DNA of 64,000 bases from positions 1-64,000 of the forward strand of contig LJHW01000035.1 of assembly GCA_001295865.1 (NCBI GenBank), in the 5' to 3' direction. This document shows, piece by piece, positions 1-24,567 of the stretch; positions within the stretch are counted from its first letter, which is position 1; each line of letters opens with the position of its first letter. The notes under the pieces were generated by a model, which saw nothing but the letters and a program-made list of their open reading frames with translations, was not told the DNA's origin and ran no database searches. The position numbers and the translations under genes are program-made. This DNA is from a beta proteobacterium AAP65. Its GTDB lineage: Bacteria > Pseudomonadota > Gammaproteobacteria > Burkholderiales > Burkholderiaceae_C.

Positions 1-1660
1 CGTCGGCGAAGGTGTGGGTGACGTTGCCGCTGAGGGCGGCGAGTTCTGCCGCGGTGATGGTCTGCAATGCCGAGCCGTCGCCCCAGTCGATGCTGTAGCT
101 CAGCACATCGGCCGGCACGTCGGTCCCCACGATGTTCAGCGTGTACACCGCACCCTCCAGGGTGTTGGCGTTGCCGCTGAGCACCAGGCCCGGTGAGGTG
201 TTGGTGATGGTCAGATTTTGCGTACCCAGGATGTGGGTGCCGTCTTCGTCGGCCGCGCTCACCACGATGATGCGGCCCGTGCCAGCGCCCACGCCATCGG
301 CGTAGACGTGCGTGAAGACCCCGCCTGCAGCAGCCCACTGCGCGGGCGTGAAGTTCTCGTTCGGCGTGCCGTCACCCCAACTGATGCTGTAGCCGGTGCG
401 GGTGTCGGCGCCCGGGTCGGTCACGGCGCCCACGTTCAGCGTGTAGGTCGCGCCTTCGGCCACCGTGGCGGCGCCGCTCACGGGTGCCGTAGGGGCCACG
501 TTGTTGACCGTGATGCTCCGCACGCCGGCATCGGCCCAAACACCGTCTTCGTCGGTCACGCTCACGCGGATCTGGCGCGTGATGTTGCCGTCGTCGTAGG
601 TGTGGTTGAACTGCCCGTTGGCCGGGAAGTCCACGGCCAGCACGGTCTGCACCGTGCCGTCGCCCCAGTCGATGACGTACTCGCTGATGGTGTCGGCGCC
701 CGGGTCGCTGCGGGTCAGCGTCATCGTGTAGACGCTGCCTTCGGCCACCGCGCTGCTGCCGCCAATGAAGATCTGCGGCGCCACGTTGTTGACGTTGACG
801 ATGAAGCTGTCGCTGCCGACCTGCTGCACGACGCCGCTGTCGTCCACCGTCACCGTCACGGTGTACGGGCCGCCGTTGTCGGCATAGCTGTGGCCGATGT
901 TGAAGCTGAACTGGCCGGCGGCGATGTTGCCGTTGCTGGTCTGGCCGTCGCCCCAATCCACCGTGTAGGTGCGGCCGGCGGCCCCCTGGTCGGTCGGGTC
1001 GTCGAAGAAGATGGTGCGGCTGAAGAAGTTGCCTTCGTTGACGGTGGTGTCGGCGCCCGCGTTGACCGTGATGACTTCGGCCGGGGCGCTGACATCGATG
1101 GTCTTGGTGCCGGCGTTGGCGTAGACGCCGTCTTCGTCGGTCAGGCCCACCACGATGGTCTTCGGACCCACGGTCACGAAGGTGTGCGTGAGGATGCCGC
1201 CGGGGGGCAGCGTGGCGGCGGTGTAGGTCTCCACCGGCGAGCCATCGCCCCAGTTGATGCGGTACTCGGTGACATCGTCATCACCCGGGTCGTTCACCGA
1301 GCCGAGGTCGAGCGTGTAGACCTGGCCTTGCTCCACGGTGGTGTTGCCGAAGAGCGGAATGGTCGGCGCGATGTTGGCGATGTTGGCCGTGAAGCTGCCG
1401 CTCTCGATGCTGTTGCCCTGGCCCTGCTGGTCGTTGACGGTGACGGTGACCGTGTAGTTGCCGTTGTCGGCATAGACGTGCGAGATGTTGGGGTTGGCCA
1501 GGCTCGTCACGAACACCGTGTTGGCGCTGCCATCGCCCCAGTTCACCGTGACCTGGTGCGATTCCGGGTCGGGGTCGCCGATGGTGATGCTGCGGCTGAA
1601 GACGCTGCCTTCGCTGCCGGCGGCGTCGGTCAGCAGGCCCAGGCGCGGCCCGTCGTTGAC
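1..1660 (-). repeat. Array of six PKD-like domains inside the giant protein
   Basis: Six WGDG cores have Trp codons ending at 1540, 1252, 955, 667, 379 and 85, a spacing of 96 to 99 residues. Each unit has the PKD pattern: a linker ending in a VxEGxxYTL-type strand, then WGDG, then an HTYADNG-type strand, then a V-T-V-T-V-D strand. PKD domains are immunoglobulin-like spacers in secreted proteins and often bind polysaccharide or protein. The array runs off the window, so the true number is at least six. Confidence 0.88.
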
Positions 1661-4600
1661 GTTGCTCAGCACGATGTTGGTGAACACCGGAGTGCTGGCG
1701 AAGGCCACGCCGTCGCTGCCTGTCCAGCGGAACTGGTCGTTGCCGAAATAATCGACGTTGCCCTGGTAGGTGAGCAGGCCGGCCTGCAGTTGCTCGATGG
1801 AGATTTCCTGCCCGCTGAGCACGGGTGTGCCGTCCAGCCGCAGCGTGCCTTCGGCCGGCAGCGTGACGATCTTGATCGCTTGCAGGCTCTGGCCGTCGGG
1901 GTCGGTGAAGCCGCCTTCGAACAGCGTGTTGCTCAGCGTGATCACCGCCTCTTCCGCGCCTGTGACCGTCACGTTCTGGATGTTGGGTGCCGTGTTGCTG
2001 AAGCGCTGCAGGCGGATTTCGTAGGTGTCGTTGCCGCCGTCGGGAATGCCGTCGCCATTGCCGTCGCCGGTGGCGATGTAGCCCGCGTAGGTGACGACGA
2101 ATCCGCCGTCGGCCATGCTGGCCACGGCCGGCTGCCACTGCGTGGAATAGCGGTAGCTGTTGACCAGTGTCTCGCCGTCCACCGCACGCCCGGCGGCGTC
2201 GTACTGCTGCGCGTAGACGTCGTAGCTGCCGACGTTGGTGTCGGTCCACGTGATCACCCAGCCGCCCGACTCCAAGGCCGTCACCGCCGGCTCGTACTGC
2301 TGGCCGTTGATGTTGGTGTTGACGCGGAATTCGGCCCCCAGCTTGGTGCCGGTGGCGTCGAAACGCTGGGCGTAGATGCCGGTGGAGCTCAAGTCCTGGC
2401 CGGCGGATTCCCATGTGACGACGAAGCCGCCATCTTTCAGCGCAGCCACCGAGGCCGCGCTCTGGGTGCTGTCGACATAGCTGTTGACCGCGAAGGCGGC
2501 CCCCTCGGCCACGCCCGCCGCGCTGAAGCGCTGGCCGAAGACGCCGAGCCCGTTGCCATCGGCGCTGTGGTCGGTCCAGATGACGACGAAGCCGCCGCCG
2601 GCCAGGCCGGCGATGCTGGGTTCGTTCTGCGTGGTGGTGCCCAGGCCTGAAGGATTGGCGCGCGTTTCCACGCCCTGCACCACGCCATTGCTGTCGTAGC
2701 GCTGGAAGAGGACGTCGCGGTACTCGGTGAAGCCCGCGTCGGTGTAGTAGTCGTCGTACCAGGCGACGACAAAACCACCGTCGGCCGTGGCCGTGATGCT
2801 GGGCTGGTACTGGTTCTGGTCGGTGCCGGTGTTGACGCGGAACTCGGTGCCTGCGGTGCTGCCATCGGCCGCGTAACGCTGGCCGTAGACCCCGGCGCCG
2901 CTGCCATCCTGGCTGTCGCTGCGCCAGGTCACGACCCAGCCGCCCCCAGTCAGCGCCGTGATCTGGGCCTCGTACTGGGCGTTGGTGGTGACGGTGTTGA
3001 CGCGGAACTGCCCGCCCACCGCGTTGTCGTCGCTGTCGTAGCGCTGGCCGTAGACGCCCCAGCTGCTGCCGTCGGCGCCGCCCTGGTCGGTCCACACCAC
3101 CACATAGCCGCCGTCGCTCACCCGCGCCACGGCGGGTTCGACCTGGTTGCCGGCCACGGTGGTGTTGACCACCTTCTCCAGACCGAACTTCACCGCGCCG
3201 TCGGTTTCGGGCCGCACGTTGATGTTGACGGTGCGCGCCTCGCTGGCGCCGCCGTCGCCATCGGTGACGCGGATGCTGATGGTGCGGTTGGCGATCGGGT
3301 TGCTGACGGTGTTGGCGTAGGTCAGGCTCTCGATGACCTGCTCCACCGCGTCCACGGTGGCGTTTGCATTGAACTGCACCGTGAGCTTGTTGCCGTTGGC
3401 GCCGTTGCTGACGATGGTGCCGATGGCCACACCCTGGTAGCTGACCACCGCGCCGGCCACGCTGACCTGCCGTGCACCGGTGCCTTCGCTGCGGATGCCC
3501 AGCTGGTCCTGGCTGTCCAGGCCTTGCTGGCCCAGCTGGTCTTGCGCGCCGTAGCCGGTGAGGTAGTTCACCTCGAGCAGGCCGCCGTCGAAGTTGGGCG
3601 AGTCCACGTCTTGCAGGCCGACGCCGGCATCGATGAGCTGCGGCACGGCGTTGACGAGGTTCTCACCGAAGCTCACGCTGCTGTTCACGTCGACCAGCAG
3701 CGGGTTGGCCTGGCGCACCAGCGTCGCGGGGTTGCCGAAAACCTGCTGGTAGACGTCATACTCGTTGGTGGTGTTGTCGTAGTCGTAGAACGACACGACG
3801 AAGCCGCCATCCGGCAAGGCCGCAAGGGCTGGCTGTCCCGCGTAATTGCTGGCGTTGGGGAAGAGGTCGGCCTTGATCTCGCCGTCCACACGCTCGCCCG
3901 TGGCGCTGAACTGCTGCACGAAGATCTGGCCCGAGCTCTCCCAGGCCACCACCCAGCCGCCGGTGCTTAGCGCCGCCACCGCCGCGTCGAACTGGTTGCC
4001 CGAGACCGTGGTGTTGACGCGGAACTCGGCACCCACGGGGCTGCCGTCGGCGGCGTAGCGCTGGCTGAAGATGCCGCCGCTGCTGCTGTCTTGCCCTTCT
4101 GAACGCCAGGTGACGAGGAAGCCGCCGTCGTTCAGGGCCGTGACAACGCTGTTGTCTTGCGAGCTGGTGGTGTAGGTGTTGACGCGGAAGCTCGCGCCCT
4201 GCGCGTTGCCGCTGGCGTCGAAGCGCTGGCCGTTGATGCCGTTGCTGTTGCCATCGGCGCCGTCGTCAGACCACGTGACCACGAAGCCACCGCCCACCAG
4301 GCCGGTGATGCTCGGTTCGTACTGCGACACCGTGCCCAGGCCGGCCGGGTTGGCGCGTGTCTCGCCGCCTTGCGCCACGCCGGCGGCGTTGTAACGCTGG
4401 AAGAAGATGTCGCGGTATTCGGTGAAACCGGCGTTGGTGTAGTAGTCGTCGTACCAGGCGATGACAAAGCCGCCGTCGGCCGTGGCCGCAATGCTGGGCT
4501 GGTACTGGTTCTGGTCGGTGCTGGTGTTGACACGGAACTCGGCACCCTGCGGCCGGCCGGCGCTGTCGTAACGCTGCGCGTAGACACCGGCGCCGCTGCT

Positions 4601-7600
4601 GTCCTGGTTGTCGCTGCGCCAGGCAATGACAAAACCGCCCCCGCTCAGCCCCACCACGGTGGCGTCGCTCTGCGAGTAAGGCGTGTAAGTGTTGACCTGG
4701 AACTCGGTGCCCAGGGGCACGCCGTTGGGGGCGAAACGCTGGGCGTAGACGGCCGCGTCCCAGCCGTCCTGTGCCGTGGCAGAGGTCCACACCGTGATGT
4801 AGCTGCCGTCGGCCAGGCTCGCCATCGCAGCGTCGCTCTGGGTGTTCGGGCGGTAGGAGTTGACACGCTCGTTGTCGAACACCGGCTGCGCACCGTCGAA
4901 CTGCGGCGTGACCTTGATCTCGACACTGCGCGCCACGCTGGCACCGCCGTCGCCGTCGGTCACGCGGATGCTCACCGTGCGCGTGGCCGCGGGGTCGCTG
5001 AAGGTGTTGGCGTAGGTCAGGCTCTCGATCACCCGCTCTACCGCCACCACGCTGGCGTTGGCGTTGAAGCTGATGGCCAGCTTGCTGCCGTTCACGCCGT
5101 TGCTGGTGATGGTGCCGATGGCCACGCCGCCGAAGCTGACGGTGTTGCCAGCCACCCCCACCTGGCCGACGCCGCTGCCCTCGTGGCGCACGCCGAGCTG
5201 GTCTTGCGCCGACAGGCCCGACAGGCCGAGCTGGTCTTGCAGCGCGTAGCCGGTGAGGTAGTTCACCTCCAGCACGCCGCCGTCGAAGTTGGTGGAGTCC
5301 GCGTCGGACAGGCCCACCACGGGGTCGATCAACTGCGGTGTGGCGTTGACCAGGTCCTCGTCGAAGGTGACGCTGGTGGCCACATCCACGAGCTGCGGGT
5401 TGGCTTGCCGCGTGAAGTCGGCCGGCTTGCCGAAGAGCTGCTGGTAGACGTTGTAGGTGCTGCCGTCGTTGTAGTCGTAGTCGCGGAAGGTGACGACGAA
5501 GCCGCCGTTGGCCAGTGCGACGATGCTGCTGGCGTTGCTGTTGCCGTTGTTGTCCAGGGCGTCGACACGCTGCTCGCCGTCGAGCCGGGCGCCCGTGGCG
5601 TCGTAGGCCTGCACCCACTGGTTGCCGCCGCTGTAGTAGCTGACGGCGAAGCCGCCGTGCGACAGGCCCGTCACCGACGGCAGGTACTGCGTGCTGGCCG
5701 TGTTGGTGTTGACGCGGAACTCGCCGCCCACCAGGCTGCCATCGGCCGCATAACGTTGCCCGAAGACACCCAGGCCGCTGCCGTCCTGGCCCTCAGAAGA
5801 CCAGACTGCGATCCAGCCGCCGTCGTTCAGTGCGGCCGCCGCCGCTTGCGACTGTGCGTTCGTGGTGTAGCTGTTGACCCGGAAACTGGCCCCCAGGGCG
5901 CTGCCGGCGGCATCGAAACGCTGACCGAAGACGCCGGTGCCACTGCCGTCCTTGCTGTCGTCGGTCCACATCATCACGAAGCCGCCGCCGCTCAGGCCCA
6001 CGAGCACGGGTTCGTACTGGCTGACGGTGCCCTCGCCTGCCGGGTTGGCACGGGTCTCGCCGCCCTGTGCCACGCCGGCGGCGTTGTAGCGCTGGAAGAA
6101 GACGTCGCGGTACTCGGTGAAGCCGGCGTCGGTGTAGTAGTCGTCGTACCAGCCGATGACGAAGCCGCCATCGGCCGTGGCCGCAATGGTGGGCTGGTAT
6201 TGGTTCTGGTCGGTGCTGGTGTTGACGAGGAACTCGCCACCGAGTGCGGTGCCGTCGTTGGCGAAGCGCTGTGCGTAGACGCCGGTGCCGCTGCCGTCCT
6301 GGCCGTTGCTGCGCCAGGTGACGACGTAACCGCCCCCGTTCAGCCCGGCCACCGCCGGTTCGTACTGGCTGTCGCGGGTGTTGCTGTTGATGCGGAACTC
6401 GGCCCCCACGGCCACGCCCTGGGCGTCGAAGCGCTGCGCGTAGACGCCCTCGTTCCAGCCGTCCTGGCCGCTGGATTCCCAGACGGTGATGTAGCCGCCG
6501 TCAGACAGGCGCGCAGAAGCCGGGTTGTCCTGTGTGCTCGGCGCATAGGTGTTGACACGCTCGTTGCCGAAGAGCGGCGAGCCGCCGTCGGCTTCGGGGG
6601 TGATGTTGATGACCACGGCGCGCGGCACGCTGGTGCCGCCGTCGCCGTCGGACAGGCTGATGCTGACGGTGCGTGCCGGCACCGGCGCCGAGGCCGTGTT
6701 CGCGTAGGTCAGGTTCTCGAGCAGCGCTTCCACCAGCGATGCCGTGGCGTTGGCGTTGAAGCTCACCACCAGGTCGGCGCCGTTCACGCCGGTGCCGGTG
6801 ATGGTGCCGATGGCCACACCGCCGACGCTGACTGTGTTGCCGGCAACGCCCACCTGCCCGGGGCCGTTGCCCTGGTGGCGGATGCCGAACTGGTCTTGCT
6901 GGGCCGCCGGGTCGGCGAGTTGCGCCGTTTCGATGTTGCCGTAACCCGAGATCACGCTCACCCACAGCGTGCCGCCATCGAAGTTGGCGGAGTCGGTGTC
7001 CACCAGGCCAATGCCGGCGTCGATGAGCTGCGGCGCACTGTTGACGAGGTTCTCGGCAAAGGTGACGCTGGCTGCCAGGTCGGTGAGCACCGGCGCTGCC
7101 GAACCGGTCAGGCTGCCGGGTGCGCCCAAGACCTGCTGGAAGACGCCGTAGGTATTGACGGTGCCTCTTTCCTGGTCGTAGCCCGCCCACACGACGACGG
7201 CCTTGTTGCCACCCAGCCCGACGATCTCGGGTTCGTACTGCGTGCTGCTGCGCACGGTGTTGAGCACCTGCACGCCGTCGACCTTGTTGCCCGCAGCATC
7301 GAACTGCTGCGTCATCACGTCCCAGCTGTTGCCACCCAGCGCTGCGCTGGGGTTGCCGTCCCAGGTGACGATGAAGCCGTTGTTGTCGAGGGCCGCGACG
7401 CGGGGTTCACCGTTCAGGTTGCTGGGGCTGTCGCTGCCGTTGACCCGCAGCTCCGTGCCCACGGGCGTGCCCGCGGCATCGAAGCGCTGGGCGCGCACAT
7501 CGTTGCCGTCGTCCCAGACCGCCACGAAGCCGCCACCGCTCAGCGCTGCCACGTGCACGCCGCTCTGGGCGCCGGCCGTGGTGGTGTTGATGCTGATGGG

Positions 7601-10600
7601 GCTGCCGACCTTGGCGCCCGCGTTGGTGAAGAGCTGGGCCACGACGCCGCTGCCGCTGGCGTCGCCGCTGGTGTCGGTCCACACGGCCACGAAGCCGCCG
7701 CCGCTCAGCGCGGCCAGCTGCGGCTGGTACTGCGTGGCGCCGCCGGCGGTGTTGAGCGTGATCTCGCTGCCGAGCAGGCTGCCATCGGCCGCGAAACGCT
7801 GCGCCAGCACGTCGTTGAGGCTCGAGTTGCCGGTGTAGTCGCTGCGGTAGGCGATGATGAAGCTGCCATCCGACAGCCCCAGCACGGCGGGCTCGTACTG
7901 GTTGCCGACGGTGCTGGTGGTGGCGCGGAACTCGGGGCCCGCCGGGCTGCCGTCGGCGTTGTAGCGCTGGGCATAAACGCCATAGCTGCCGCCGCCGTCC
8001 TGGCCGGTGGCGCGCCAAGCGATGACGAAGCCACCGCCCGCCAGGCCGCCGATGGCCGGCTCGGTCTGGCTGTTCAGCGTGGTGGTGTTGACCTGGAACT
8101 CGGGGCCGATGGCCGCGCCGTTGCTGGCGTAGCGCTGCGCGAAGATGCCATGGTCGTCACCGTCTTGCGCACCGACGGATGTCCAGGTGACGACATAGCT
8201 GCCGTCGTTGCTGCCCAGCAGGCGCGCCACGGCCGGGTTCTGCTGCTGGTTGCTTTCGAAGGTGTTGACCTGCTGCTCGGTGCCCAGCAAGGGCTGCACG
8301 GCATTGGCATCGTCTTCGGCCGCGACGGTGATGGAGACATCACGCGCGGTGGCCGCGTTGCCGGCGCCATCGTTCAGGCTGATGCGCACCGAACGGCTGG
8401 CCAGCGGTTCGCTGGAGGTGCTGCTGTAGCGCAGGTTCTCGATCACGCGCTCGATGGCGGTTTCGGTGGCCGTGGCTTTCCAGGTGATGTCCAGCGTGCT
8501 GCCGTTCGCGCCATTGAGCGTGGCGCTGATGGTGCCGATGGAGACACCGCCGAACAGCACATCGCTGCCCACCACGCCCACCTGCCCGGCGGCGCTGCCT
8601 TCGTTGCGGATGGCCAGTTGGTCGTCGCTGCGGTTGGTGCTGCTCAGGTAGGTGACGGTGAGCTTGCCGTTGGCCCAGTTGCTGCCGGTGTAGCTGAGCT
8701 GCACATCCGGGTCGATCAGCGCACCGGCCAGGGCCTGCGTCTCTGTCAGCGCCAGGGTGCTGGCCACGTCGTCCAGGCCCAGCACGGGTGCGCTGAAGCT
8801 GGCCTGGATGCGGATCTGCACCGTGCTGGCGTCGCTGGCGCCGCCGTCACCGTCGGTCAGGCGGATGCCGATGTGGCGGTCGGTGGTGCCGGCCGGCGGC
8901 GCCGTGTGCAGGTAGGTGATGTTCTCGCCCACGGCGCGCACCGCTTCGGCCGTGGCGTTGGCGTTGAAGGTCACCACGAGGTTGGGCGCGCCTGCGCCGC
9001 CGCCGGTGTAGCTGCCCACCACGGTGCCTCCAAAGCTGACATCGCTGCCGCTCACGCCCACCTGGCCGGCACCGTTGCCTTCGTTGCGCAGGCCCAGCGT
9101 GTCGTTGGCACTGAGGCCCGCGGTGAAGAAGACCGTCAGCTGGCCGCCGTCGAAGTTGGCCGAGTCGCTGTCGGTGACGCTGATGTCGGTGTCGATCACG
9201 CGCGCCGTGCCGGCGTAGAAATTGGCATCCGCCGGCGCGTTGGTCAGCGTGCGCAGCAGGCGCACGTCACCCAGCACGGGGTTGGCACTGGGGCGCGCCA
9301 GTTCGGCGGCGTCGCCGAAGATCTGGGTGCGGATTTCCCAGGTGTTGCCGCCGGCGCCGTTGATCGGCGTGGCGTTGTAGTCGCTGTAGGCAACGACGAA
9401 GTTGCCGTTGCCGAGGTCGGCGATGGCCGGCTGGTATTCGGTGCTGTTCGTCAGCGAAGGCAGCTTGCGCTCGCCGTCCAGCGCCACGCCCGCGTTGTTG
9501 AACTCGCGGATGTAGACATCGTTCTGCGTGCCCGTGCCGCTGACGTCGGTGTTGTCGTTGTACCAGGTGACGACGAAGCCGCCGGTGCTCAGCCCGGTCA
9601 CGTCAGGCTGGTATTGGCTGCCCGGCGTGCGCTGGTTGACGAGGAACTCGCCACCCACCTTGGCGCCCGTGGCGTCCAGCAGTTGCCCGAAGACGCCTGC
9701 AGCGTCGCCGTCCTGGCCGCCGTTGCTGCGCCACACGACGACGAAGCCGCCATTGGAAAGCGCCGCGACGCTGGGCTCGTACTGGCTGTCCGCGGTCTGC
9801 GTGTTCACCGTGAACAAGGGCCCGAGCAGGCCGGTGGCCGCGTCGTAGAAGCGGCCGAAAACGCCCCAGGCATTGCCATCCAGCCCAGCCTGGTCCTGCC
9901 AGACGATCAGCAGGTCGCCGTTGGCCTGCGCCGCCACATCGGGCAGCTCTTGCGTGCTGGTCTGCGCGGTGGTGCCGCTGGTGTTGTTGACCCGAAGTTC
10001 GGCCGTCACCTGCACACCGTTGTTGTCGAAGCGGCGCAGGTAGATGTCTTGCCCGCTGAACCCGGCGGCGCCTTGCGAACCCGACCACACCGCGGCAAAG
10101 CCGCCCGTGTAGCCCGCCACCACACCGTGGTACTGGCTGCCTGCCGTGGTGGTGTTGACCGTGAAGTTGCTGCCCACGGCCGCGCCGCTGCTGTCGTAGC
10201 GCTGACCGATCACCCCCCAGCCTGCGCCATCGCTGCCACTGATGTCTTGCCAGACGATGACGTAGCCGCCGTCGGACAGGGCCGTGATCTGCGAAAAATC
10301 TTGTGTGCTGCTGGTGGCCGTGTTGACACGCACCTCGTTGCCGATGGCCACGCCGGCCCCGGTGTAACGCTGGGCGTAAACGCCGTTGCCGCTGCCGTCC
10401 TGGCCGCTGCTGGTCCAGGTGACGACATAGCTGCCGTCGGCCAGCACCGCCACCTCGGGGTATTCCTGCGTGCTCTCGCGGTAGGTGTTGACGCTGCCCA
10501 GTGACTCGCCATACACCAGTGGTGCACCGTCGAGGTTGGGGGTGACGTTGATGGTCACGGCGGCCGGTGCCGTGCTGCCGCCGTCGCCGTCGGTGAGGCG

Positions 10601-13600
10601 CAAGCCCACGGTGCGGCTGAGGGCCGGGCCCTCGGAAGTGCTGCCGTAGGTGAGGCTCTGCACCAGCGCTTCCACCGCTTCGGTGCTGGCGTTGGCGTTC
10701 AGGTCGATGCGCAGCGCGCTGCCGTTGCTGCCCGTCAGGGCCGCGGCCACGGTGCCTATGGCCACGCCACCAAAGCTGATGGTGCCGCCGGCCACGCCGA
10801 TCTGGCCCGCAGCGTTGCCGACGTTGCGCACCCCGAGTTGGTCGCCGGCCTCGCCGCCCTGCACGTAGAAGAGGTCGAGGCGGCCGCCGTCGAAGTTGGC
10901 CGAATCGGTGTCGACCAGGGCCACGGCGGCGTCGATGAGCTGCGGCGTGGCATTGACGAGGTTTTCGGCAAAGGTGACGCTGCCGGTGAAGTCACCCAGC
11001 ACCGGGTTGGCCTGACGTGCCAGCGCGGCTGGGTTGCCGAAGAGCTGCTGCGCGATGCCGTAGGTGTTGTTGCCGCCGCCGGCGGTGGTCACGTAGTCGG
11101 CGTAGGCGACGACGAAGCCGCCGCTGGCCAGCCCGGCGATGGCCGGCTGTTGCTCGGTGCTGTTGGTGGCCGAGAGGAGCTTGCGTTCGCCGTCTATGGG
11201 CACGCCGGCATTGGTGAACTCGCGAACGAAGACGTCGCTGGACGTACCGGCGTCGGAGGTGTCGCTGTACCAGCTGACGGCGAAGCCGCCGCCACTCAGA
11301 CCGGTGACGGCCGCCTGGTACTGACCGCCCGCGGTGGTTTCATTGACGAGGAACTCGCCGCCCACCTTGGCGCCGGCCGCGGTGAAGACCTGCGCGTACA
11401 CGCCGGCGCTGGCGCCGTCCTGGTTGTCGCTGCGCCAGGTGACGACGAAGCCGCCGTCGGACAGCACGGCCACCGAGGGTTCGTATTGGTTGCCGGTCGT
11501 CGTGCCGTTGACAAGGAAGGTGTCGCCGAACGTGCCTGTTGTGGCGTCGTACAGGCGCGCGAAGACACCGTAGCTGGCACCATCGTTGCCGTTGGCGTCT
11601 TGCCACACGATGACGAGGTTGCCGTTGGCGTAGGCCGCCACGTCGGGCAGCTCTTGCGTGCCCGTCTGCGCGCTGGCAGCGACCACACTGACCCGGGTTT
11701 CCGCCGTCGTGATGGCGCCGGTGTTGTCGTAGCGCTTCAGGTAGATGTCGAAGGCGTTGCCGCCCGCCTGGCTGGACGCCCACACCACCGCGTAGCCGCC
11801 GTCGTAGCTGGCCACGGCGTCGTGGTACTGGGTGCCCGTGCTGACACTGTTCACGAGGAACTGCCCGCCCACGGCCACACCATCGGCGTCGTAGCGCTGG
11901 CCGTAGACCCCCCAGCCGCTGCCGTCGTTGCTGCTGTCCTGCCAGGTGACGACCCAGCCGCCGCCACCGGCGCCCGTCAAGCCGGCCACATGCGCGTAGT
12001 TCTGCTGGCTGACGGTCAGGCTGTTGACGCGGATCTCACCGCCCACTGCGACGCCCACGTTGTTGTAGCGCTGCATGTAGACGCCATCGGCCTGGCCGTC
12101 TTGCCCGGCCGAAGTCCAGACGATGACGTAGCCACCGTCGGCCAGCACGCCGATTTCGGGGTCGTCCTGGGCGTCGACGGTGTAGGTGTTGACGGCTTCC
12201 TCGCCCCACACCAGCGGCTGGCCGTCGAGTTCGCGCGTGACGTTGATGGTGATCAGGCTGGCATCGGTGCTGCCGCCATCGCCGTCGCTCAGGCGCAGGC
12301 CCACGGTGCGCTCGGCCGCCGGGCTTTGCGAGGTGCTGGCGTAGGTCAGGTTCTGCACCAGGGCCTGCACGGCCTCTACCGTGGCGCCGGCGGTGAAATC
12401 GATGCGCAGGTTGTTGCCCTGGCCGCCGGTGCCCAGACCGCTGATGCTGCCGATGGCCACGCCACCGTAGCTGATCGTGCTGCCGGCCACGCCGATCTGG
12501 CCCGCGCCGTTGCCGACGTGGCGCACCCCGAACTGGTCGGTGTTCTCGCCGCCCTGCACGTAGTACAGGTCGAGCCGGCCGCCGTCGAAGTTCGCTGAAT
12601 CGATGTCGTTCAGGCTCACGGCGCCGTCGATCACCTGCGGCGTGGCGTTGACCAGGTTTTCTGCGAAGGTCACGCTGCCCGTGAAGTCGCCCAGGCTCGG
12701 GTTGGCCTGGCGCGGCACTTCGGCTGCGTTGCCGAAGAGCTGCTGCACGATGTTGTAGGTGCTGTTGGCGCCCGGCACGCCGGTGTTGTAGTCGGCGTAG
12801 ACAACGACGAAGTTGCCGTTGCCCAGGTCGGCCAGGGCCGGCTCGAACTCGGTGTTGTTCGTGGGCGAGAGCAGCTTGCGCTGGCTGTCGACGGCCACAC
12901 CGTTGGCGTCGTACTGGCGGATGTAGACGTCGTTCTGGGTGCCGGTGCCCGTGAAGTCGTAGTTGTCGTTGTAGAAGCTGACGACAAAACCGCCCGTGGA
13001 CAGCCCGATCACCTTGGGCTGGTACTGCCCGCCCGAGGTGGTTTCGTTGACGATGAACTCGCCGCCCACCTTGGCGCCGGCCGCGTCAAAACGCTGTCCG
13101 TAGACACCGGCGCTGCTGCCGTCCTGGCCGTCAGAACGCCAGACGGCCACGAAGCCGCCGTCGCTGAGCGTGGCCACGTCCACCTCGTACTGGCTGCCCG
13201 CGGTGGTGGTGCTGATCAGGAAGGTGGGGCCGAAGCTGTCCGTCGCCGCGTTGAACTGGCGGCCGAAGACGCCGACGCCGCTGCCGTCGTTGCCGCTGTC
13301 GTCGCGCCAGGCGATGACGAGGTCGCCGTTGGCGTGGGCTGCGATGCTGGGTTCGTACTGCGTGCCGGGCTGTGCCGTGCTGGCGCCCACGGCGTCGCTG
13401 ACCCGCAACTCGCCGCCGACCTTGTTGCCGGCATTGTCGAAGCGCTGGAGGTAGATCTCCCACCCGCTGCTGTCAGGGTTGTTGCCGCTCGAGGCCCACA
13501 CCACAGCGTAGCCGGCCGCCACCGGGCCGGCCCCGGCCCAGCTGGCCACATCGTTGTACTGCTGGGTGCTGCTGGTGAAGGTGTTGGCGAGGAAGTTGTT

Positions 13601-15634
13601 GCCCAGGGCCTGGCCCTGGCTGTCGTAGCGCTGGCCGTAGACACCGCGGCCGCTGCCGTCGCTGCCCGAGGCGTCGTCCCACGTAATCACGAAGCCACCG
13701 TTGGACAGGCCGGCCACGTGCGGCAGTTCTTGCGTGCTGCTGGTGACGGTGTTGACACGCTGCTCCGGCCCGACCGCCAGGCCGCTGGCGTTGAAGCGCT
13801 GGAAGAAGATCTCGTAGGTGTTGTCGACTTGCAAAGACGACTGCCACACCACGACATAACCACCGTCGGCCAGCGTGGCCACGGCGGGAGCGCGCTGCTC
13901 GCCTGCGACGAAGCTGTTGACCGTGCTCTCGCCGTAAAGCGCCAGCTCACCGTCGGCTTCGGGCGTGACCTGGATGATCTTGGCGTAGCCCGGGCTGGCG
14001 CCACCGTCGCCATCGCTGACACGCAGGCCCACCACGCGGCTGGCCGCCGGGCTCTGGCTGGTGTTGGCGTAGGTCAGCTGCTGGATCAGTTCTTCCACCG
14101 CATCCACGGTGGCGTTGGCGTTGAACACCACGCTGAGGCCGCTGCCATTGGCGCCGCCGCTGAGCGTGCCGAAAACCACGCCCTCGAACAGCACGTTGGC
14201 GCCAGACACCGAAATCTGGTTCGGGCCCGTGCCCCCGCTGCGCACGCCCAGCTGGTCGGCCGTGCTGCCGCCTTGCACGTAGTACAGGTCGAGGCGGCCG
14301 CCGTCGAGGTTGGCGCTGTCCAGGTCGGTCAGGGCGACGACGATGTCGATCAGCTGCGGTGCTGCGTTGACCGTGTTTTCGGCGAAGGTGATGCTGCCTT
14401 CCCAGTCGCCGATGGCCGGGCCGCCTTGCTGGATGGGGCCGATGAAATCGGGCCCGAAGATCTGCTGCACGATGTCCGAACCGCCGTCGGGCGTGTCGTC
14501 GGTGTAGACCACCAGGTAGCGGCCGGCGCCCAGGTCTGCGATGGTGGGCTGCGATTCGGTGCCGCTGGTCTGCGAGGCCAGCTTGATCTCGCCGCCCAGC
14601 GCCGCGCCCGCGGCGTCGTACTCGCGCAGGTAAACGTCGCGGCTGGTGCCGCTGCCGTCGTTGGCGCTGGAGTCGTCGTACCAGGTGACGACGAAACCGC
14701 CGGTGGACAGCACCGTCACCTGCGGCTGGTACTGGTTGTTGTCGGTGGCGACGTTGACGCGGAACTCGGTGCCCGCCGTGCTGCCATCGGCGTTGAAACG
14801 TTGGGCGAAGACGCCGGCGCCGCTGCCGTCCTGGCTGTCGCTGCGCCACACCACCACGAAGCTGCCGTCGCTGGCCATGGCCACGTCGGGCTCGTACTGG
14901 CTGCCGGCCACGAAGGTGGTGATGAGAAAGGTGTCGCCGAAAGTGTTGGTGCTGGCGTTGTAGCGGCGCCCGTAGACGCCGTTGCCGCTGCTGTCGCTGC
15001 CGCCCTGGTCGGTCCAGACCATGATCTGCTGGCCCGCGGCATTGCTGGCGATGGCCGGGGCCACCTGGCTGCCGGCCTGGGCGGCTGCATTGCCCGCGCC
15101 CGTGGCCGTGCCCACCAGCGTTTCGGTGCCGACGCGGTTGCCCGCGGCGTCCCAGCGCTGCATCACGATGTCTTGGGTGCCTGTGCTGCTGTTGTAGCCG
15201 CTCCAGACGGTGGTGTAGCCACTGTCCCAGCCTGCCGAAGCGCCGTCGTTCTGGGTGCTGAAGGTCGTGGTGTTGACGATGACGTTGCCGCCCTGGGCCG
15301 CGCCGTTGGCGTCGTAGCGCTGGGCCAGCACGGTCTGCCCGCTGCCATCGAGGCCGTTGTCGTCGGTCCAGTTGATGACAAAGCCACCTCCCGGCACGGC
15401 ACTGAGCTTGGGCTCGGTCTGGTTGTTCGTGGTGCTGGTGCTGACGCGGAACTCGGGCCCGAGGGCTGCGCCCGTGGCCGAGTAGCGCTGGGCGTAGATG
15501 CCCCACCCGCTGCCGTCCTGCCCCTGCGATTGCCAGGCGATGACGTAGCTCCCATCAGCCAGCACGGCCACTTGTGCGTTGGTCTGTTCGCCAGTGCGGA
15601 AGGTGTTGACGCGTTTTTCAGGGCTCAGGATCAC
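1..15634 (-). CDS. Giant repeat protein with predicted beta-propellers, cadherin-like and PKD modules (3' end outside window)
   Basis: One minus-strand frame stays open from GTG 15634 to the window edge, giving at least 5,211 codons. The frame was checked by the phase of conserved Trp codons (for example ending at 85, 379, 955, 1540, 2413, 4456, 6316, 8185 and 11437), which all agree, so no frameshift is seen at the sampled points. GTG is chosen because an in-frame TGA lies five codons upstream and GGGAG sits 6 bases before it. Modules from the N terminus are eight groups of seven blade repeats (typical DGGFVVTWRS...QDGSG...YAQRYDA), alternating with cadherin-like modules (DSANFDGG...IGTI...TDGDGG), then one further cadherin-like module and six PKD domains with a WGDG core. 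The protein opens directly in repeat sequence without a signal peptide. Architecture resembles very large secreted adhesins exported by type I systems, but the C terminus that would show this is not here. Function is inferred only as extracellular or surface. Confidence 0.9.
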   Translation of the reverse strand, partial: MILSPEKRVNTFRTGEQTNAQVAVLADGSYVIAWQSQGQDGSGWGIYAQRYSATGAALGPEFRVSTSTTNNQTEPKLSAVPGGGFVINWTDDNGLDGSGQTVLAQRYDANGAAQGGNVIVNTTTFSTQNDGASAGWDSGYTTVWSGYNSSTGTQDIVMQRWDAAGNRVGTETLVGTATGAGNAAAQAGSQVAPAIASNAAGQQIMVWTDQGGSDSSGNGVYGRRYNASTNTFGDTFLITTFVAGSQYEPDVAMASDGSFVVVWRSDSQDGSGAGVFAQRFNADGSTAGTEFRVNVATDNNQYQPQVTVLSTGGFVVTWYDDSSANDGSGTSRDVYLREYDAAGAALGGEIKLASQTSGTESQPTIADLGAGRYLVVYTDDTPDGGSDIVQQIFGPDFIGPIQQGGPAIGDWEGSITFAENTVNAAPQLIDIVVALTDLDSANLDGGRLDLYYVQGGSTADQLGVRSGGTGPNQISVSGANVLFEGVVFGTLSGGANGSGLSVVFNANATVDAVEELIQQLTYANTSQSPAASRVVGLRVSDGDGGASPGYAKIIQVTPEADGELALYGESTVNSFVAGEQRAPAVATLADGGYVVVWQSSLQVDNTYEIFFQRFNASGLAVGPEQRVNTVTSSTQELPHVAGLSNGGFVITWDDASGSDGSGRGVYGQRYDSQGQALGNNFLANTFTSSTQQYNDVASWAGAGPVAAGYAVVWASSGNNPDSSGWEIYLQRFDNAGNKVGGELRVSDAVGASTAQPGTQYEPSIAAHANGDLVIAWRDDSGNDGSGVGVFGRQFNAATDSFGPTFLISTTTAGSQYEVDVATLSDGGFVAVWRSDGQDGSSAGVYGQRFDAAGAKVGGEFIVNETTSGGQYQPKVIGLSTGGFVVSFYNDNYDFTGTGTQNDVYIRQYDANGVAVDSQRKLLSPTNNTEFEPALADLGNGNFVVVYADYNTGVPGANSTYNIVQQLFGNAAEVPRQANPSLGDFTGSVTFAENLVNATPQVIDGAVSLNDIDSANFDGGRLDLYYVQGGENTDQFGVRHVGNGAGQIGVAGSTISYGGVAIGSISGLGTGGQGNNLRIDFTAGATVEAVQALVQNLTYASTSQSPAAERTVGLRLSDGDGGSTDASLITINVTRELDGQPLVWGEEAVNTYTVDAQDDPEIGVLADGGYVIVWTSAGQDGQADGVYMQRYNNVGVAVGGEIRVNSLTVSQQNYAHVAGLTGAGGGGWVVTWQDSSNDGSGWGVYGQRYDADGVAVGGQFLVNSVSTGTQYHDAVASYDGGYAVVWASSQAGGNAFDIYLKRYDNTGAITTAETRVSVVAASAQTGTQELPDVAAYANGNLVIVWQDANGNDGASYGVFARLYDATTGTFGDTFLVNGTTTGNQYEPSVAVLSDGGFVVTWRSDNQDGASAGVYAQVFTAAGAKVGGEFLVNETTAGGQYQAAVTGLSGGGFAVSWYSDTSDAGTSSDVFVREFTNAGVPIDGERKLLSATNSTEQQPAIAGLASGGFVVAYADYVTTAGGGNNTYGIAQQLFGNPAALARQANPVLGDFTGSVTFAENLVNATPQLIDAAVALVDTDSANFDGGRLDLFYVQGGEAGDQLGVRNVGNAAGQIGVAGGTISFGGVAIGTVAAALTGSNGSALRIDLNANASTEAVEALVQSLTYGSTSEGPALSRTVGLRLTDGDGGSTAPAAVTINVTPNLDGAPLVYGESLGSVNTYRESTQEYPEVAVLADGSYVVTWTSSGQDGSGNGVYAQRYTGAGVAIGNEVRVNTATSSTQDFSQITALSDGGYVIVWQDISGSDGAGWGVIGQRYDSSGAAVGSNFTVNTTTAGSQYHGVVAGYTGGFAAVWSGSQGAAGFSGQDIYLRRFDNNGVQVTAELRVNNTSGTTAQTSTQELPDVAAQANGDLLIVWQDQAGLDGNAWGVFGRFYDAATGLLGPLFTVNTQTADSQYEPSVAALSNGGFVVVWRSNGGQDGDAAGVFGQLLDATGAKVGGEFLVNQRTPGSQYQPDVTGLSTGGFVVTWYNDNTDVSGTGTQNDVYIREFNNAGVALDGERKLPSLTNSTEYQPAIADLGNGNFVVAYSDYNATPINGAGGNTWEIRTQIFGDAAELARPSANPVLGDVRLLRTLTNAPADANFYAGTARVIDTDISVTDSDSANFDGGQLTVFFTAGLSANDTLGLRNEGNGAGQVGVSGSDVSFGGTVVGSYTGGGAGAPNLVVTFNANATAEAVRAVGENITYLHTAPPAGTTDRHIGIRLTDGDGGASDASTVQIRIQASFSAPVLGLDDVASTLALTETQALAGALIDPDVQLSYTGSNWANGKLTVTYLSSTNRSDDQLAIRNEGSAAGQVGVVGSDVLFGGVSIGTISATLNGANGSTLDITWKATATETAIERVIENLRYSSTSSEPLASRSVRISLNDGAGNAATARDVSITVAAEDDANAVQPLLGTEQQVNTFESNQQQNPAVARLLGSNDGSYVVTWTSVGAQDGDDHGIFAQRYASNGAAIGPEFQVNTTTLNSQTEPAIGGLAGGGFVIAWRATGQDGGGSYGVYAQRYNADGSPAGPEFRATTSTVGNQYEPAVLGLSDGSFIIAYRSDYTGNSSLNDVLAQRFAADGSLLGSEITLNTAGGATQYQPQLAALSGGGFVAVWTDTSGDASGSGVVAQLFTNAGAKVGSPISINTTTAGAQSGVHVAALSGGGFVAVWDDGNDVRAQRFDAAGTPVGTELRVNGSDSPSNLNGEPRVAALDNNGFIVTWDGNPSAALGGNSWDVMTQQFDAAGNKVDGVQVLNTVRSSTQYEPEIVGLGGNKAVVVWAGYDQERGTVNTYGVFQQVLGAPGSLTGSAAPVLTDLAASVTFAENLVNSAPQLIDAGIGLVDTDSANFDGGTLWVSVISGYGNIETAQLADPAAQQDQFGIRHQGNGPGQVGVAGNTVSVGGVAIGTITGTGVNGADLVVSFNANATASLVEALLENLTYANTASAPVPARTVSISLSDGDGGTSVPRAVVINITPEADGGSPLFGNERVNTYAPSTQDNPASARLSDGGYITVWESSGQDGWNEGVYAQRFDAQGVAVGAEFRINSNTRDSQYEPAVAGLNGGGYVVTWRSNGQDGSGTGVYAQRFANDGTALGGEFLVNTSTDQNQYQPTIAATADGGFVIGWYDDYYTDAGFTEYRDVFFQRYNAAGVAQGGETRANPAGEGTVSQYEPVLVGLSGGGFVMMWTDDSKDGSGTGVFGQRFDAAGSALGASFRVNSYTTNAQSQAAAAALNDGGWIAVWSSEGQDGSGLGVFGQRYAADGSLVGGEFRVNTNTASTQYLPSVTGLSHGGFAVSYYSGGNQWVQAYDATGARLDGEQRVDALDNNGNSNASSIVALANGGFVVTFRDYDYNDGSTYNVYQQLFGKPADFTRQANPQLVDVATSVTFDEDLVNATPQLIDPVVGLSDADSTNFDGGVLEVNYLTGYALQDQLGLSGLSAQDQLGVRHEGSGVGQVGVAGNTVSFGGVAIGTITSNGVNGSKLAISFNANASVVAVERVIESLTYANTFSDPAATRTVSIRVTDGDGGASVARSVEIKVTPQFDGAQPVFDNERVNSYRPNTQSDAAMASLADGSYITVWTSATAQDGWDAAVYAQRFAPNGVPLGTEFQVNTYTPYSQSDATVVGLSGGGFVIAWRSDNQDSSGAGVYAQRYDSAGRPQGAEFRVNTSTDQNQYQPSIAATADGGFVIAWYDDYYTNAGFTEYRDIFFQRYNAAGVAQGGETRANPAGLGTVSQYEPSITGLVGGGFVVTWSDDGADGNSNGINGQRFDASGNAQGASFRVNTYTTSSQDNSVVTALNDGGFLVTWRSEGQDSSSGGIFSQRYAADGSPVGAEFRVNTTVSGNQFDAAVAALSTGGWVVAWESSGQIFVQQFSATGERVDGEIKADLFPNASNYAGQPALAALPDGGFVVSFYDYDNTTNEYDVYQQVFGNPATLVRQANPLLVDVNSSVSFGENLVNAVPQLIDAGVGLQDVDSPNFDGGLLEVNYLTGYGAQDQLGQQGLDSQDQLGIRSEGTGARQVSVAGAVVSYQGVAIGTIVSNGANGNKLTVQFNANATVDAVEQVIESLTYANTVSNPIANRTISIRVTDGDGGASEARTVNINVRPETDGAVKFGLEKVVNTTVAGNQVEPAVARVSDGGYVVVWTDQGGADGSSWGVYGQRYDSDDNAVGGQFRVNTVTTNAQYEAQITALTGGGWVVTWRSDSQDGSGAGVYGQRYAADGSTAGTEFRVNTGTDQNQYQPSITATADGGFVVAWYDDYYTDAGFTEYRDVLFQRYDSNGVVQGVETRANPSGLGTTTQNEPSIAGLAGGGFVVIWTDHSADGNGLGVFGQRFSAAGVAEGAAFAVNSYVDSTQSAASVAALKDGGFVVTWESAGQDLSSTGIYAQRFDATGTKLGAEFRVNTNINGQQYEPAVTALESGGWVITWTDTNVGSYDVYAQQYDAAGRAVDGETLVNSYRYSTQWQPAVASMADGGFVVTYAGYIATGDGNGDGIPDGGNDTYEIRLQRFSNTAPNIQNVTVTGAEEAVITLSNTLFEGGFTDPDGQSLQAIKIVTLPAEGTLRLDGTPVLSGQEISIEQLQAGLLTYQGNVDYFGNDQFRWTGSDGVAFASTPVFTNIVLSNVNDGPRLGLLTDAAGSEGSVFSRSITIGDPDPESHQVTVNWGDGSANTVFVTSLANPNISHVYADNGNYTVTVTVNDQQGQGNSIESGSFTANIANIAPTIPLFGNTTVEQGQVYTLDLGSVNDPGDDDVTEYRINWGDGSPVETYTAATLPPGGILTHTFVTVGPKTIVVGLTDEDGVYANAGTKTIDVSAPAEVITVNAGADTTVNEGNFFSRTIFFDDPTDQGAAGRTYTVDWGDGQTSNGNIAAGQFSFNIGHSYADNGGPYTVTVTVDDSGVVQQVGSDSFIVNVNNVAPQIFIGGSSAVAEGSVYTMTLTRSDPGADTISEYVIDWGDGTVQTVLAVDFPANGQFNHTYDDGNITRQIRVSVTDEDGVWADAGVRSITVNNVAPTAPVSGAATVAEGATYTLNVGAVTDPGADTRTGYSISWGDGTPNENFTPAQWAAAGGVFTHVYADGVGAGTGRIIVVSAADEDGTHILGTQNLTITNTSPGLVLSGNANTLEGAVYTLNIVGTDVPADVLSYSIDWGDGSALQTITAAELAALSGNVTHTFAD
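1700..1975 (-). repeat. Single cadherin-like (CSPG-type) module between the last propeller group and the PKD array
   Basis: The translated segment contains FTDPDGQSLQAIKIV, then LPAEGTLRLDGTPV, then LTYQGNVDYFGNDQFRW. This is the usual signature of the cadherin-like or CSPG repeat found in long bacterial adhesins. It occurs once here and differs from the eight DSANFDGG modules upstream. It marks the switch from propeller-type to PKD-type repeats. Confidence 0.7.
1985..15600 (-). repeat. Fifty-six blade-like repeats in eight groups of seven
   Basis: Each unit is 53 to 61 residues with a strand core such as LADGGYVVTWQS, then QDGSG, then a YxQRYDAxG strand, then EFRVNT and Q-x-x-P-x-V-A. Counting the W or V core by eye gives seven units in every group: roughly 15600-14410, 13925-12715, 12235-11015, 10540-9255, 8320-7085, 6600-5375, 4910-3700 and 3200-1985. 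Seven antiparallel repeats per group is the number expected for a closed seven-bladed beta-propeller. That fold assignment is inference. The DGSG loops could hold calcium. Confidence 0.8.
3210..14400 (-). repeat. Eight cadherin-like spacer modules of about 157 residues
   Basis: Modules lie near 14400-13930, 12710-12240, 11010-10545, 9250-8790, 8785-8320, 7080-6605, 5370-4915 and 3690-3210. Each begins with FAENLVNATPQLID-type sequence, has DSANFDGG, LGVRNxGxGxGQIGV, an (V/I)GTI strand and ends in a LTDGDGG strand. One module sits at each boundary between propeller groups, except for the pair at 8.3-9.25 kb. Together with seven blades a module makes a super-repeat of about 1.7 kb. The consensus is common in giant bacterial proteins; its ligand is not known to me. 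Confidence 0.8.
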
Positions 15635-15886: not shown

Positions 15887-16123
15887 TCAGCAGCGGCCCG
15901 AGCGCCGGCTGCGCGGCTGCAGCTTGTCGAGTTCGGCGAACTGCTGCTTGAGCAGCAGCATCAGCGTTCGAGCGTGTTCCACCGGCAGGCGCAGGCAGCT
16001 GGTGGGGGCGCCTTCGTCCTGCGCCTTGCGCGCCAGCACCAGCGCGTCGACGTTCACTTCGATCAGCCCCTTGTCGTGCTTCAGGGACTTCAGGCGCTGC
16101 ACTTCGATGTCATAGGGTTTCAA
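15887..16123 (-). CDS. Small conserved Burkholderiales hypothetical protein (78 aa)
   Basis: The product begins LKPYDIEVQRLKSLKHDKG and contains NVDALVLARKAQDEG and a Leu-rich helix (ARTLMLLLKQQFAELDK) before a basic tail ending SRRSGRC. I recognise it as a small soluble protein common in Comamonadaceae-like genomes, with no assigned function. The start is TTG 16123, chosen because GGAG lies 6 bases upstream and the sequence before it reads as non-coding; longer in-frame extensions run antisense to the PEP-CTERM gene. It is divergent from that gene and upstream of the giant gene on the same strand. Confidence 0.75.
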   Translation of the reverse strand: MKPYDIEVQRLKSLKHDKGLIEVNVDALVLARKAQDEGAPTSCLRLPVEHARTLMLLLKQQFAELDKLQPRSRRSGRC

Positions 16124-16258
16124 GCGGGGCTCCAGAGGGCGTGCCGGTGGGCATTGTCGTGCCGGGCGGCGGGCCCCCCGCACTCGGGTGGTCGGACGCA
16201 TTGCGCCCGGGGCGGGCACGGGCCTAGCATCCTCGCAGACTTCCTTGGAAAGCCATCG

Positions 16259-16870
16259 ATGCTGAAACCTGTACTGCTGTCTTGTGCCCTGGCCGTGGCC
16301 AGCCTGCTGCCGGTCGCCCACGCCGCCACCGCCTGGGACGAGGGTGTGTCCGGCGATCTGTCCAACGTCGGGCTGGCGCCCAACACCGTCAGCATGACGG
16401 CCGGTTCCAACTTCGTCATCGGCAGCACCGGCCGTGACACCCAGGGCGTGGTCGACCGCGACTACTTCACCTTCACCCTGGCCGAGGGTTACCAGATCGA
16501 TGCCCTGGTGGTCATGCCCGGCTCCACCTTCCTCGGGCCCGAGAGCATCTCCTTCATCGCCATCCAGTCGGGGCCGCTGTTCACGGTCAGCCCCACCAGC
16601 AACAGCCCCGAGGGCCTGCTGGGCTACTGGCTCTACGGCCCCAACGACCTCGGCCTGGACATCCTGCAGCAGATGGGCTCCAGCCCAGGCGCGGTGGGTT
16701 TCTTCGGTTCGCTGCCGGCCGGCACCTACAGCATGTGGATCCAGGAAACCGCCCCCGGCGTGGCCAACTACAACTTCGATTTCCAGGTCTCGCAGGTGCC
16801 CGAACCCGCCACGGCGCTGTTCATGGTGGCCGGCCTGGCCGCGCTGGGCTGGCGCGCGCGCCGGCGCTGA
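16259..16870 (+). CDS. PEP-CTERM sorting domain protein (203 aa)
   Basis: The N terminus (MLKPVLLSCALAVASLLPVAHA) is a Sec signal peptide. The mature part is a compact beta-rich domain with FTFTLAEGYQIDALVVM and a GTYSMWIQE strand. The C terminus carries VPEPATALFMVAGLAALGW followed by RARRR, the complete PEP-CTERM signal of motif, membrane segment and basic tail. Such proteins are thought to be processed by exosortase EpsH and sent to the exterior, often with exopolysaccharide. No exosortase gene is in the window. GGAAAG lies 7 bases before the ATG. The role of the mature domain is unknown. Confidence 0.9.
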   Translation: MLKPVLLSCALAVASLLPVAHAATAWDEGVSGDLSNVGLAPNTVSMTAGSNFVIGSTGRDTQGVVDRDYFTFTLAEGYQIDALVVMPGSTFLGPESISFIAIQSGPLFTVSPTSNSPEGLLGYWLYGPNDLGLDILQQMGSSPGAVGFFGSLPAGTYSMWIQETAPGVANYNFDFQVSQVPEPATALFMVAGLAALGWRARRR

Positions 16871-17136
16871 GCGCCGCAGCCCCCTCGAACCCGGGGTGAG
16901 CGGCCGCGACTCCACTGCATTTGCTTGTTGGGCTCGAAAGTTGCCGCGGTTGCTGCTACCGTCTCCGGCACGGGTTCAAGGTGCTGCGCTGGCAGTTGTG
17001 ACGCCATGGCGTCGGGCTGCGCTGCAGGGCTGAAGATCTCCCATCGTCTGTGCGGCCACCGGCCCCCAAGGCCGGCCGCCGCGCTTTTTCAGCAGTTGCG
17101 CGTGGGCGTGTCGCCCAGTTTGCGAGAGGGGTCGAG

Positions 17137-21503: not shown

Positions 21504-22292
21504 ATGCGCTTGCCCCTGCCCCTGGTTCTTGTTCTGACTGCATGGCCTGCCAGCTGGCGGCGTTTCTGCCTCGCTGCCACGCTGTTGCTGGCGTTGCCGC
21601 TGCAGGCGCAGACGCTGAACGTCGGTGTCGACACCAGCCTCGCCGCCGCTATCGCAACCGCCGCACCGGCCTTCGCGGCCACGCGTCCCGGCGTGCAGCT
21701 GGTGCTGAAGACCGCGCCCGCCGCGGCGTTGCTGAACGAGTTGGCGCGCGGCGCACCGCTGGATGTGCTGGTGGGCATCGAACGCGAAACCGCAGCGCTG
21801 GGTGAACAGCGCCGGCTGCTGCGCCCCGAGGCCCGGGCCGCTTTCGCCAGCAACCGCCTCGTGCTGGTGGTGCCGGCCAACGCGGCCACGGTGCAGCGCC
21901 TGGCCGATCTGGCCAAGCCCGAAGTGCAGCGGGTGGCCCTGGGCCGCAGCAGCAGCCTGCCGCTGGGTCGCCATGGCCGCGAAGCGCTGAACGCGCAGCG
22001 CCTGTGGCCCAGCGTGCAGCGAAAGGTGGTGCTGGCCGACGACAGCACGGCGCTGCTGGCGCTGGTGAAAGACGGCGCTGCCGATGCCGCACTCGTCTAC
22101 GAAACCGACGCCCTGGCCGCCGGCGCCGCGCTGCGCGTGGTGCAGGTGCTGCCCACGCCCGAGCCGCTGCGCCACGGCGTGCATGTCAGCACCGCCAGCC
22201 GGCAGGCCGAGCTGGCATCGGCCTTCGCGGCCTGGCTGCGCAGCGACGCGGCGCGCGCGCTGCTGCAGGCGCGCGGTTTCGGCCCGCCCTGA
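21504..22292 (+). CDS. modA: ModA-like periplasmic molybdate-binding protein (262 aa)
   Basis: A signal peptide (RRFCLAATLLLALPLQAQ) is followed by LNVGVDTSLAAAIATAAPAFA, the start of a periplasmic binding fold. ModA-type landmarks include GAPLDVLVGIE, FASNRLVLVVPA and GAADAALVYETDAL. The family captures molybdate or tungstate for an ABC importer. No ModB or ModC gene is nearby, so this copy is an orphan or serves transport genes elsewhere. Divergent from rbgA with a 100-base gap. The metal specificity is not certain from sequence. Confidence 0.82.
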   Translation: MRLPLPLVLVLTAWPASWRRFCLAATLLLALPLQAQTLNVGVDTSLAAAIATAAPAFAATRPGVQLVLKTAPAAALLNELARGAPLDVLVGIERETAALGEQRRLLRPEARAAFASNRLVLVVPANAATVQRLADLAKPEVQRVALGRSSSLPLGRHGREALNAQRLWPSVQRKVVLADDSTALLALVKDGAADAALVYETDALAAGAALRVVQVLPTPEPLRHGVHVSTASRQAELASAFAAWLRSDAARALLQARGFGPP

Positions 22293-22407
22293 GCGCGCCA
22301 GCAGCCACCCACCACCCCCGACCCAGGGTGCACCCGCAGCGGCACGCGGGGGGCTTGTGCGCACAATGCGCCGCTTCACCGCCCATCGCCCCATCGGGGC
22401 CCACCGC

Positions 22408-24567
<2,160 letters not shown>

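Follow-up and report, generated by a model that had tools for sequence, protein, structure and literature searches.

A giant protein with eight predicted seven-bladed propellers, probably type I-secreted, in a bacterium related to Pelomonas

The 4.84-Mb genome of AAP65, a relative of Pelomonas, encodes a giant protein in which blade repeats are arranged as eight groups of seven. The eight-by-seven count, the fold prediction, the order of propeller classes in the family, and the secretion genes by the probable C-terminus were all computed. Our preferred reading, to which we give a probability of roughly two in three, is that the protein is a giant string of propellers and spacers with a PKD stalk and a C-terminal domain, that it is exported by a type I system, and that it serves as an adhesin or matrix cross-linker with many binding sites (multivalent). 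The body of this probable adhesin or matrix protein would consist of ring-closed propellers in place of Ig-like or RTX repeats. Giant surface proteins are already known; this giant, probably type I-secreted surface or matrix protein built from propellers gave no match over a model's cut-off in the two curated family libraries searched, Pfam and NCBIfam, for its propellers. In the family, propeller number is free, blade number is nearly fixed, and class order is kept.

Gene layout and blade count

The window (the whole 64,000-nucleotide stretch analyzed) is the start of contig C29. ORF reading placed the giant gene at 2..15634 on the minus strand, as a single open frame running from 15634 to 2 with at least 5211 aa and no stop. 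The start codon is GTG at 15634, after GGGAGCGA. As the window begins contig C29, the gene is cut off by the assembly. A 2115-aa mirror frame lies opposite the giant gene (4157-10504, plus strand); high GC content and the repeats most likely account for it.

Blades were counted with an iterated profile seeded from groups 6-8 of the giant protein. It found 56 blades in eight runs of exactly seven, with 3-5 residues between blades within a run; a 57th hit was dropped, its score being below zero. Because this profile was trained on the giant protein itself, a held-out profile (A4) was made from 26 blades of 26 other loci, with zero rows from the window. With E ≤ 0.001 as the limit, A4 recovered 55 of these 56 blades, seven each in groups 2-8 and six in group 1. 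Over the whole genome, it found no blade outside the giant frame at E ≤ 0.001. The seven repeats per group counted by eye in the initial annotation were thus confirmed, and no group of the giant protein had another count. The groups are 383-404 aa long (mean 393), or about 56 residues per blade, and the propellers span 15622-1988. The annotation had given about 57 residues per repeat and a span of 1985-15600, which agrees well for the repeats; as the extent of the gene it falls short, since the frame runs on to the contig end and the gene is unfinished in the window. Framework residues N7, Q14, G25, and W31 were conserved in 91-96% of 1297 blades.

The propellers were located by the blade profile and assigned to classes A to D; all lie on the minus strand and have seven blades. 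Class A comprises propellers 1 (14444..15622), 2 (12722..13933), 3 (11027..12205), and 4 (9305..10504). Propeller 5 (7115..8281) is of class B, propellers 6 (5420..6568) and 7 (3725..4876) are of class C, and propeller 8 (1988..3181), the last one, is of class D. Propeller 6 is also backed by a predicted structure and propeller 7 by a tandem model. Seven spacers separate the eight groups. Six of them are 170-182 aa long, including spacer 6 (4877..5419, 181 aa); by the group boundaries, the one between groups 4 and 5 has 341 aa (8282..9304). Gaps between adjacent seven-blade runs in related loci were 150-188 aa in 95 of 128 pairs and 323-343 aa in 20 of 128.

The tail (2..1987, minus strand) runs past the contig. 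By Pfam search, it contains a weak Cadherin_3-like stretch, under the cut-off with an E value of 0.057, followed by PKD domains (PKD_4, five stretches). The PKD domains sit after propeller 8, not between propellers, and do not tie the propellers together as the initial annotation had it. No Pfam cadherin family matched the spacers, which are beta-rich with short helices in the tandem model. In composition, the protein has zero cysteine in 5610 residues (5211 + 399), at most 1% lysine, and a strongly negative charge. Propeller 1 begins at residue 5, which leaves no space for an N-terminal signal peptide.

Beside the giant gene lies a divergent gene with a PEP-CTERM motif (15974..16870, plus strand). 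It is adjoined by a gene-like frame of 686 aa (17050-19110, plus strand) with no Pfam or NCBIfam match. A prolyl oligopeptidase gene (22084-24567, plus strand) is separate from the giant gene and encodes its own N-terminal propeller domain.

Predicted fold and comparison with known proteins

Propeller 6 alone and propellers 6 and 7 in tandem, out of the eight, were modeled. The AlphaFold2 model of propeller 6, from an alignment of 53 sequences, was all beta, with pLDDT of 93.0 and pTM of 0.93. It has seven blades with three long strands each and a short fourth strand in most. The model of propeller 6, spacer 6, and propeller 7 (948 aa) reached pLDDT of 89.9 and pTM of 0.81; in it, spacer 6 is beta-rich, with one nine-residue helix and shorter helical turns. 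Each group begins with a strand that elsewhere closes a blade, and ends one strand early. As read from the sequence and the model, the N-terminal strand of a group supplies what its last blade lacks, a ring closure design. Propeller rings are usually closed by their two ends in this way. By prediction, the modeled group is a closed ring of seven antiparallel blades; this is the fold that the initial annotation had proposed, and the modeled group showed no linear solenoid.

Propeller 6 was compared with the PDB using Foldseek. CylK ranked first (E = 2.5e-13, TM of 0.78 on the query); next came a polysaccharide lyase and the CV39L lectin (CV39L: E = 1.4e-10, TM of 0.68-0.72). The C-terminal domain of CylK is described as a seven-bladed propeller (PMC8916777). 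CylK and CV39L are among the closest solved single propellers, but the likeness is by fold only, with 11-13% identity; both are single propellers, and CylK is a biosynthetic enzyme. Searches of the PDB by sequence, with one group and with two profiles, found nothing significant, and a link to solved propellers at the sequence level was rejected.

The family libraries gave no name to the propellers. No Pfam model was above its cut-off; the nearest was CopC (23.1 vs 23.3 bits), whose match runs from the last part of a spacer into the first part of propeller 5, and the others were weaker. No NCBIfam model was above its cut-off either (PDIAV_lipo, 35.7 vs 90), and a PHROGs search with two of the eight propellers gave a best E value of 0.041. 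These results bear on whether the propellers could be lyase- or glycosidase-like enzymes in a secreted multi-enzyme chain. Many propeller enzymes are in the Foldseek list (CylK, polysaccharide lyases, sialidases), yet no Pfam or NCBIfam enzyme family scored above its cut-off, and the strongly conserved positions N7, Q14, G25, and W31 belong to the repeating framework. We consider a multi-enzyme chain improbable.

In the literature searched, no publication was recognized as describing the giant propeller protein, and no paper was found on Accumulibacter propellers or CV39L. The statement that no example of eight propellers on one chain is described was too strong. LRP2/megalin, an animal endocytic receptor, is described as having eight beta-propellers on one giant extracellular chain (PMC10451079), and LRP2 structures ranked high when the tandem model was searched with Foldseek, among the first matches listed. 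However, its propellers are six-bladed and of the YWTD type, it contains EGF and LDL-A modules, and it is membrane-anchored and animal. The LRP2 alignments to the tandem model had TM of 0.14-0.19 and about 10% identity, and we claim no common origin.

Propellers are also found in other surface proteins. Archaeal surface-layer proteins reportedly combine propellers with PKD domains, according to a 2002 paper. Surface proteins of Methanosarcina have YVTN-type blades. The combination of propellers and PKD domains is shared with the AAP65 protein, a likeness by description, whereas the blades of these archaeal proteins are YVTN-type. BapP of Pseudoalteromonas is described as having a Sec signal peptide and one N-terminal five-bladed propeller, along with Ig-like and cadherin-like domains in a chain (PMC12153261); the AAP65 protein instead has eight seven-bladed propellers and no room for a signal peptide. 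With the LapA-type and RTX giant adhesins, it shares the giant repetitive chain and probable type I export. It differs from LapA-type adhesins in having no room for an N-terminal retention module, with propeller 1 at residue 5. No RTX motif (GGxGxD, as in the GGxGxDxUx nonapeptide repeats of RTX adhesins) was present in the 5211 + 399 residues read.

Copying, blade number, and class order in the family

The nearest relative of each blade was determined within the giant protein. For 44 of the 56 blades, it was at the same position of another group; for one of the 56, it was in the blade's own group. The copied unit was therefore the whole propeller, not the blade, and since whole propellers were duplicated, constancy within the giant protein is weak evidence. 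Inner constancy as proof of selection was ruled out on these grounds.

Blade number was then counted in 74 related loci from public genomes, the best among at least 535 hits obtained with a full propeller as query. Exactly seven blades were found in 199 of 209 untruncated runs of at least two blades, single-group proteins included, in a sample that favors seven because it was picked as the best matches to a full-propeller query. The ten other runs had eight blades (two, in two Shinella loci), fifteen (one), six (two), four (three), three (one), and two (one). Three of the ten are fragments of a single array with a broken frame (L027), and another is adjacent to a masked stretch (L063). Besides these runs, 36 single blade hits in the 74 loci were set aside; 32 are located past the final propeller in their frame, and one, in L063, is a strong blade next to that masked stretch. 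The initial annotation had taken strict constancy over 56 repeats to suggest that folding into separate propellers is under selection. The 56 repeats are not 56 independent facts, which weakens this argument; the recurrence of seven in 199/209 runs of the 74 loci is better evidence, though there are related groups of eight.

As a control, 299 genomes of the phylum were searched with the blade only. Matches were found in 28 genomes, the AAP65 genome included, and 20 regions from 19 of the 27 other genomes were read. Their 34 untruncated runs had seven blades in 12 cases, six in seven, five in three, three in five, two in two, one in two, eight in two, and 49 in one. Seven was the commonest count here also, but in just 12/34 untruncated runs.

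Five control regions were looked at more closely (L126, L131, L133, L135, and L138). L126 (G182:C275:10000-28000) has a 4066-aa frame with five propeller groups and four six-blade runs; both of the six-blade runs examined (2/4) are followed by a degenerate seventh blade. The 1936-aa frame of L133 (G195:C1:1914000-1930000) consists of 363-aa repeats with 92% self-identity at that shift, each of which fits seven blades; the near-identical repeats are probably a recent amplification. L135 (G326:C1:948000-967000) has a 4178-aa frame with 49 blades unbroken and a period of 421 aa, which fits 7 x 7 blades without spacers. Related propellers with eight blades occurred as groups in L131, L138, L046, and L065. 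Seven blades is a rule, not a law, and the related loci are a natural series for asking why propellers settle on seven blades. Around the blade matches of L132 (G170:C1) is an open frame of 26117 aa, and the 18 kb read has one seven-blade run. In L074, from a Rhodobacteraceae bin, four separate frames on one contig each have a single seven-bladed run.

These counts also bear on whether the groups could form a long open beta-structure, such as a solenoid or an unclosed array, with the sevenfold grouping a by-product of module copying. Blades align by position between groups, so the count within one protein is inherited, as an open structure would allow. Against it stand the confident prediction and the match at TM of 0.78 to CylK, whose solved structure includes a seven-bladed propeller; in addition, seven recurs in single-group proteins, and two spacerless arrays have a period fitting seven blades. 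An open structure is very improbable, and we keep to closed seven-bladed rings.

Propeller number varied between loci. Six propellers were found in L012, L014, L015, L018, L025, and L041, eight in Pelomonas sp. UHG3 and in the AAP65 giant protein, and at least seven plus part of another in L016, L017, and L035. In the adjacent pairs L010_2/3, L041_2/3, and L016_4/5, both propellers share one identity profile across the eight window propellers; they are probably recent copies. Copy number differs between loci by whole modules.

Propellers of other loci were assigned to the class of their nearest window propeller: A (1-4), B (5), C (6 and 7), or D (8). The order A-B-C-D fits 24 of 26 loci chosen as betaproteobacterial or close to the window; five are single-class, so 19 of 21 informative loci agree, and all four classes are present in 12 of these 19. 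The 26 loci are not 26 independent cases because several lie in the same genome, and L030 overlaps L031 on one contig. The exceptions are L024 (A-C-B-C-D) and L025 (A-A-C-B-C-D). In both, the odd propeller is about as similar to B as to C in identity, with a margin of 0.02 or less; that of L025 stands beside class B members in the leaf order of a FastTree tree made without L024. Margins for B and C assignments are small in many loci, and in a rerun with another alignment L026 changed from BCD to BDD. When the rerun was extended to all 67 loci with a complete propeller, the classes were indistinguishable outside the giant family (e.g., L052 and L077). The classes also differ in their loops: the blade-3 loop is longer in C and D, and the blade-6 loop is short in C.

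Probable C-terminal end, secretion genes, and proposed role

Another contig of the genome, C21, opens in frame with two PKD-like repeats, followed by a 229-aa domain and a stop. The first 41 residues of its PKD-like repeats match those at the end of C29 with 93% identity. C21 probably holds the C-terminus of the giant protein, with a putative C29-C21 junction across an unsequenced gap. Downstream of the stop are a PEP-CTERM gene, a PrtD-type ABC protein gene (TIGR01842, 679 bits vs a cut-off of 510), and an HlyD adaptor gene (TIGR01843, 362 bits vs 209). The AAP65 genome has two TolC homologues over the cut-off. By way of the putative C21 continuation, the giant gene has PrtD-type ABC and HlyD genes nearby and TolC elsewhere in the genome.

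Pelomonas sp. UHG3 has the corresponding gene in one piece: a 6971-aa frame with eight propellers and the same C-terminal domain at 66% identity. The ABC and HlyD genes after it share 80% and 73% identity with those of C21. The C-terminal domain occurs once in the AAP65 genome and in just one of 48 congeners and one of 32 other genomes of the order, a distribution from which the giant gene looks optional. PrtD lies at most about 1 kb downstream in six of eight loci with the C-terminal domain (AAP65's own, L086, L011, L012, L018, and L020). HlyD follows PrtD in five of these six; L020 ends inside PrtD. No PrtD was found within 3.4 kb of the C-terminal domain in Thauera L013, and in Thauera L017 the best PrtD match of the genome is on another contig, not beside the C-terminal domain. 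In the Zoogloea genome G377, the contig with the C-terminal domain is likewise not the one with the best PrtD match, and the Zoogloea genome G376 had no match to the domain.

We propose that the giant protein is a non-RTX chain that would be exported by the type I (ABC/HlyD/TolC) system. As the neighbor genes suggest, it would pass through the ABC-HlyD-TolC channel C-terminus first, without a signal peptide; C-terminus-first export is general in type I secretion. The chain would then fold outside the cell. Propeller faces may bind ligands, in view of the class-specific loops and the lectin and sugar-enzyme neighbors by fold. Each class might offer its own binding face, and exopolysaccharide sugars would be the likeliest ligands. 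Lineages could alter reach or avidity by copying or losing whole propeller-spacer modules, and the blade number would stay at seven because the ring must close.

A possible though less probable reading is that the propellers are inert and supply length or bulk, as a spacer string or an S-layer-like coat, with binding by the C-terminal domain alone. The repeats of RTX adhesins are extenders, and propeller number differs between species here as it does in extender regions; the chain also has a PKD stalk and, distally, a conserved domain. Against this reading, the kept class order and class-specific loops exceed the needs of an inert spacer.

CylK has blade-bridging Ca2+ sites (PMC8916777), which suggests by analogy that Ca2+ could set the folding of the giant protein. 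A more specific and rather unlikely version of the binding role, set in aggregate-forming Betaproteobacteria, is that the ordered A..B-C-D string, with several A first and D last, would be a multivalent lectin cross-linking exopolysaccharide, in which interblade Ca2+ would replace RTX as the post-export folding trigger.

Among the sources of the related loci are Zoogloea, Thauera, and Accumulibacter. These are activated sludge genera, and Accumulibacter forms flocs; in activated sludge, floc cohesion is an applied question. Such relatives would fit a role of the giant protein in aggregates. Zoogloea and Thauera strains are described as forming flocs (PMC9012009, PMC4784049), and the mutations in Thauera floc mutants are described as putatively in EPS biosynthesis (PMC4784049).
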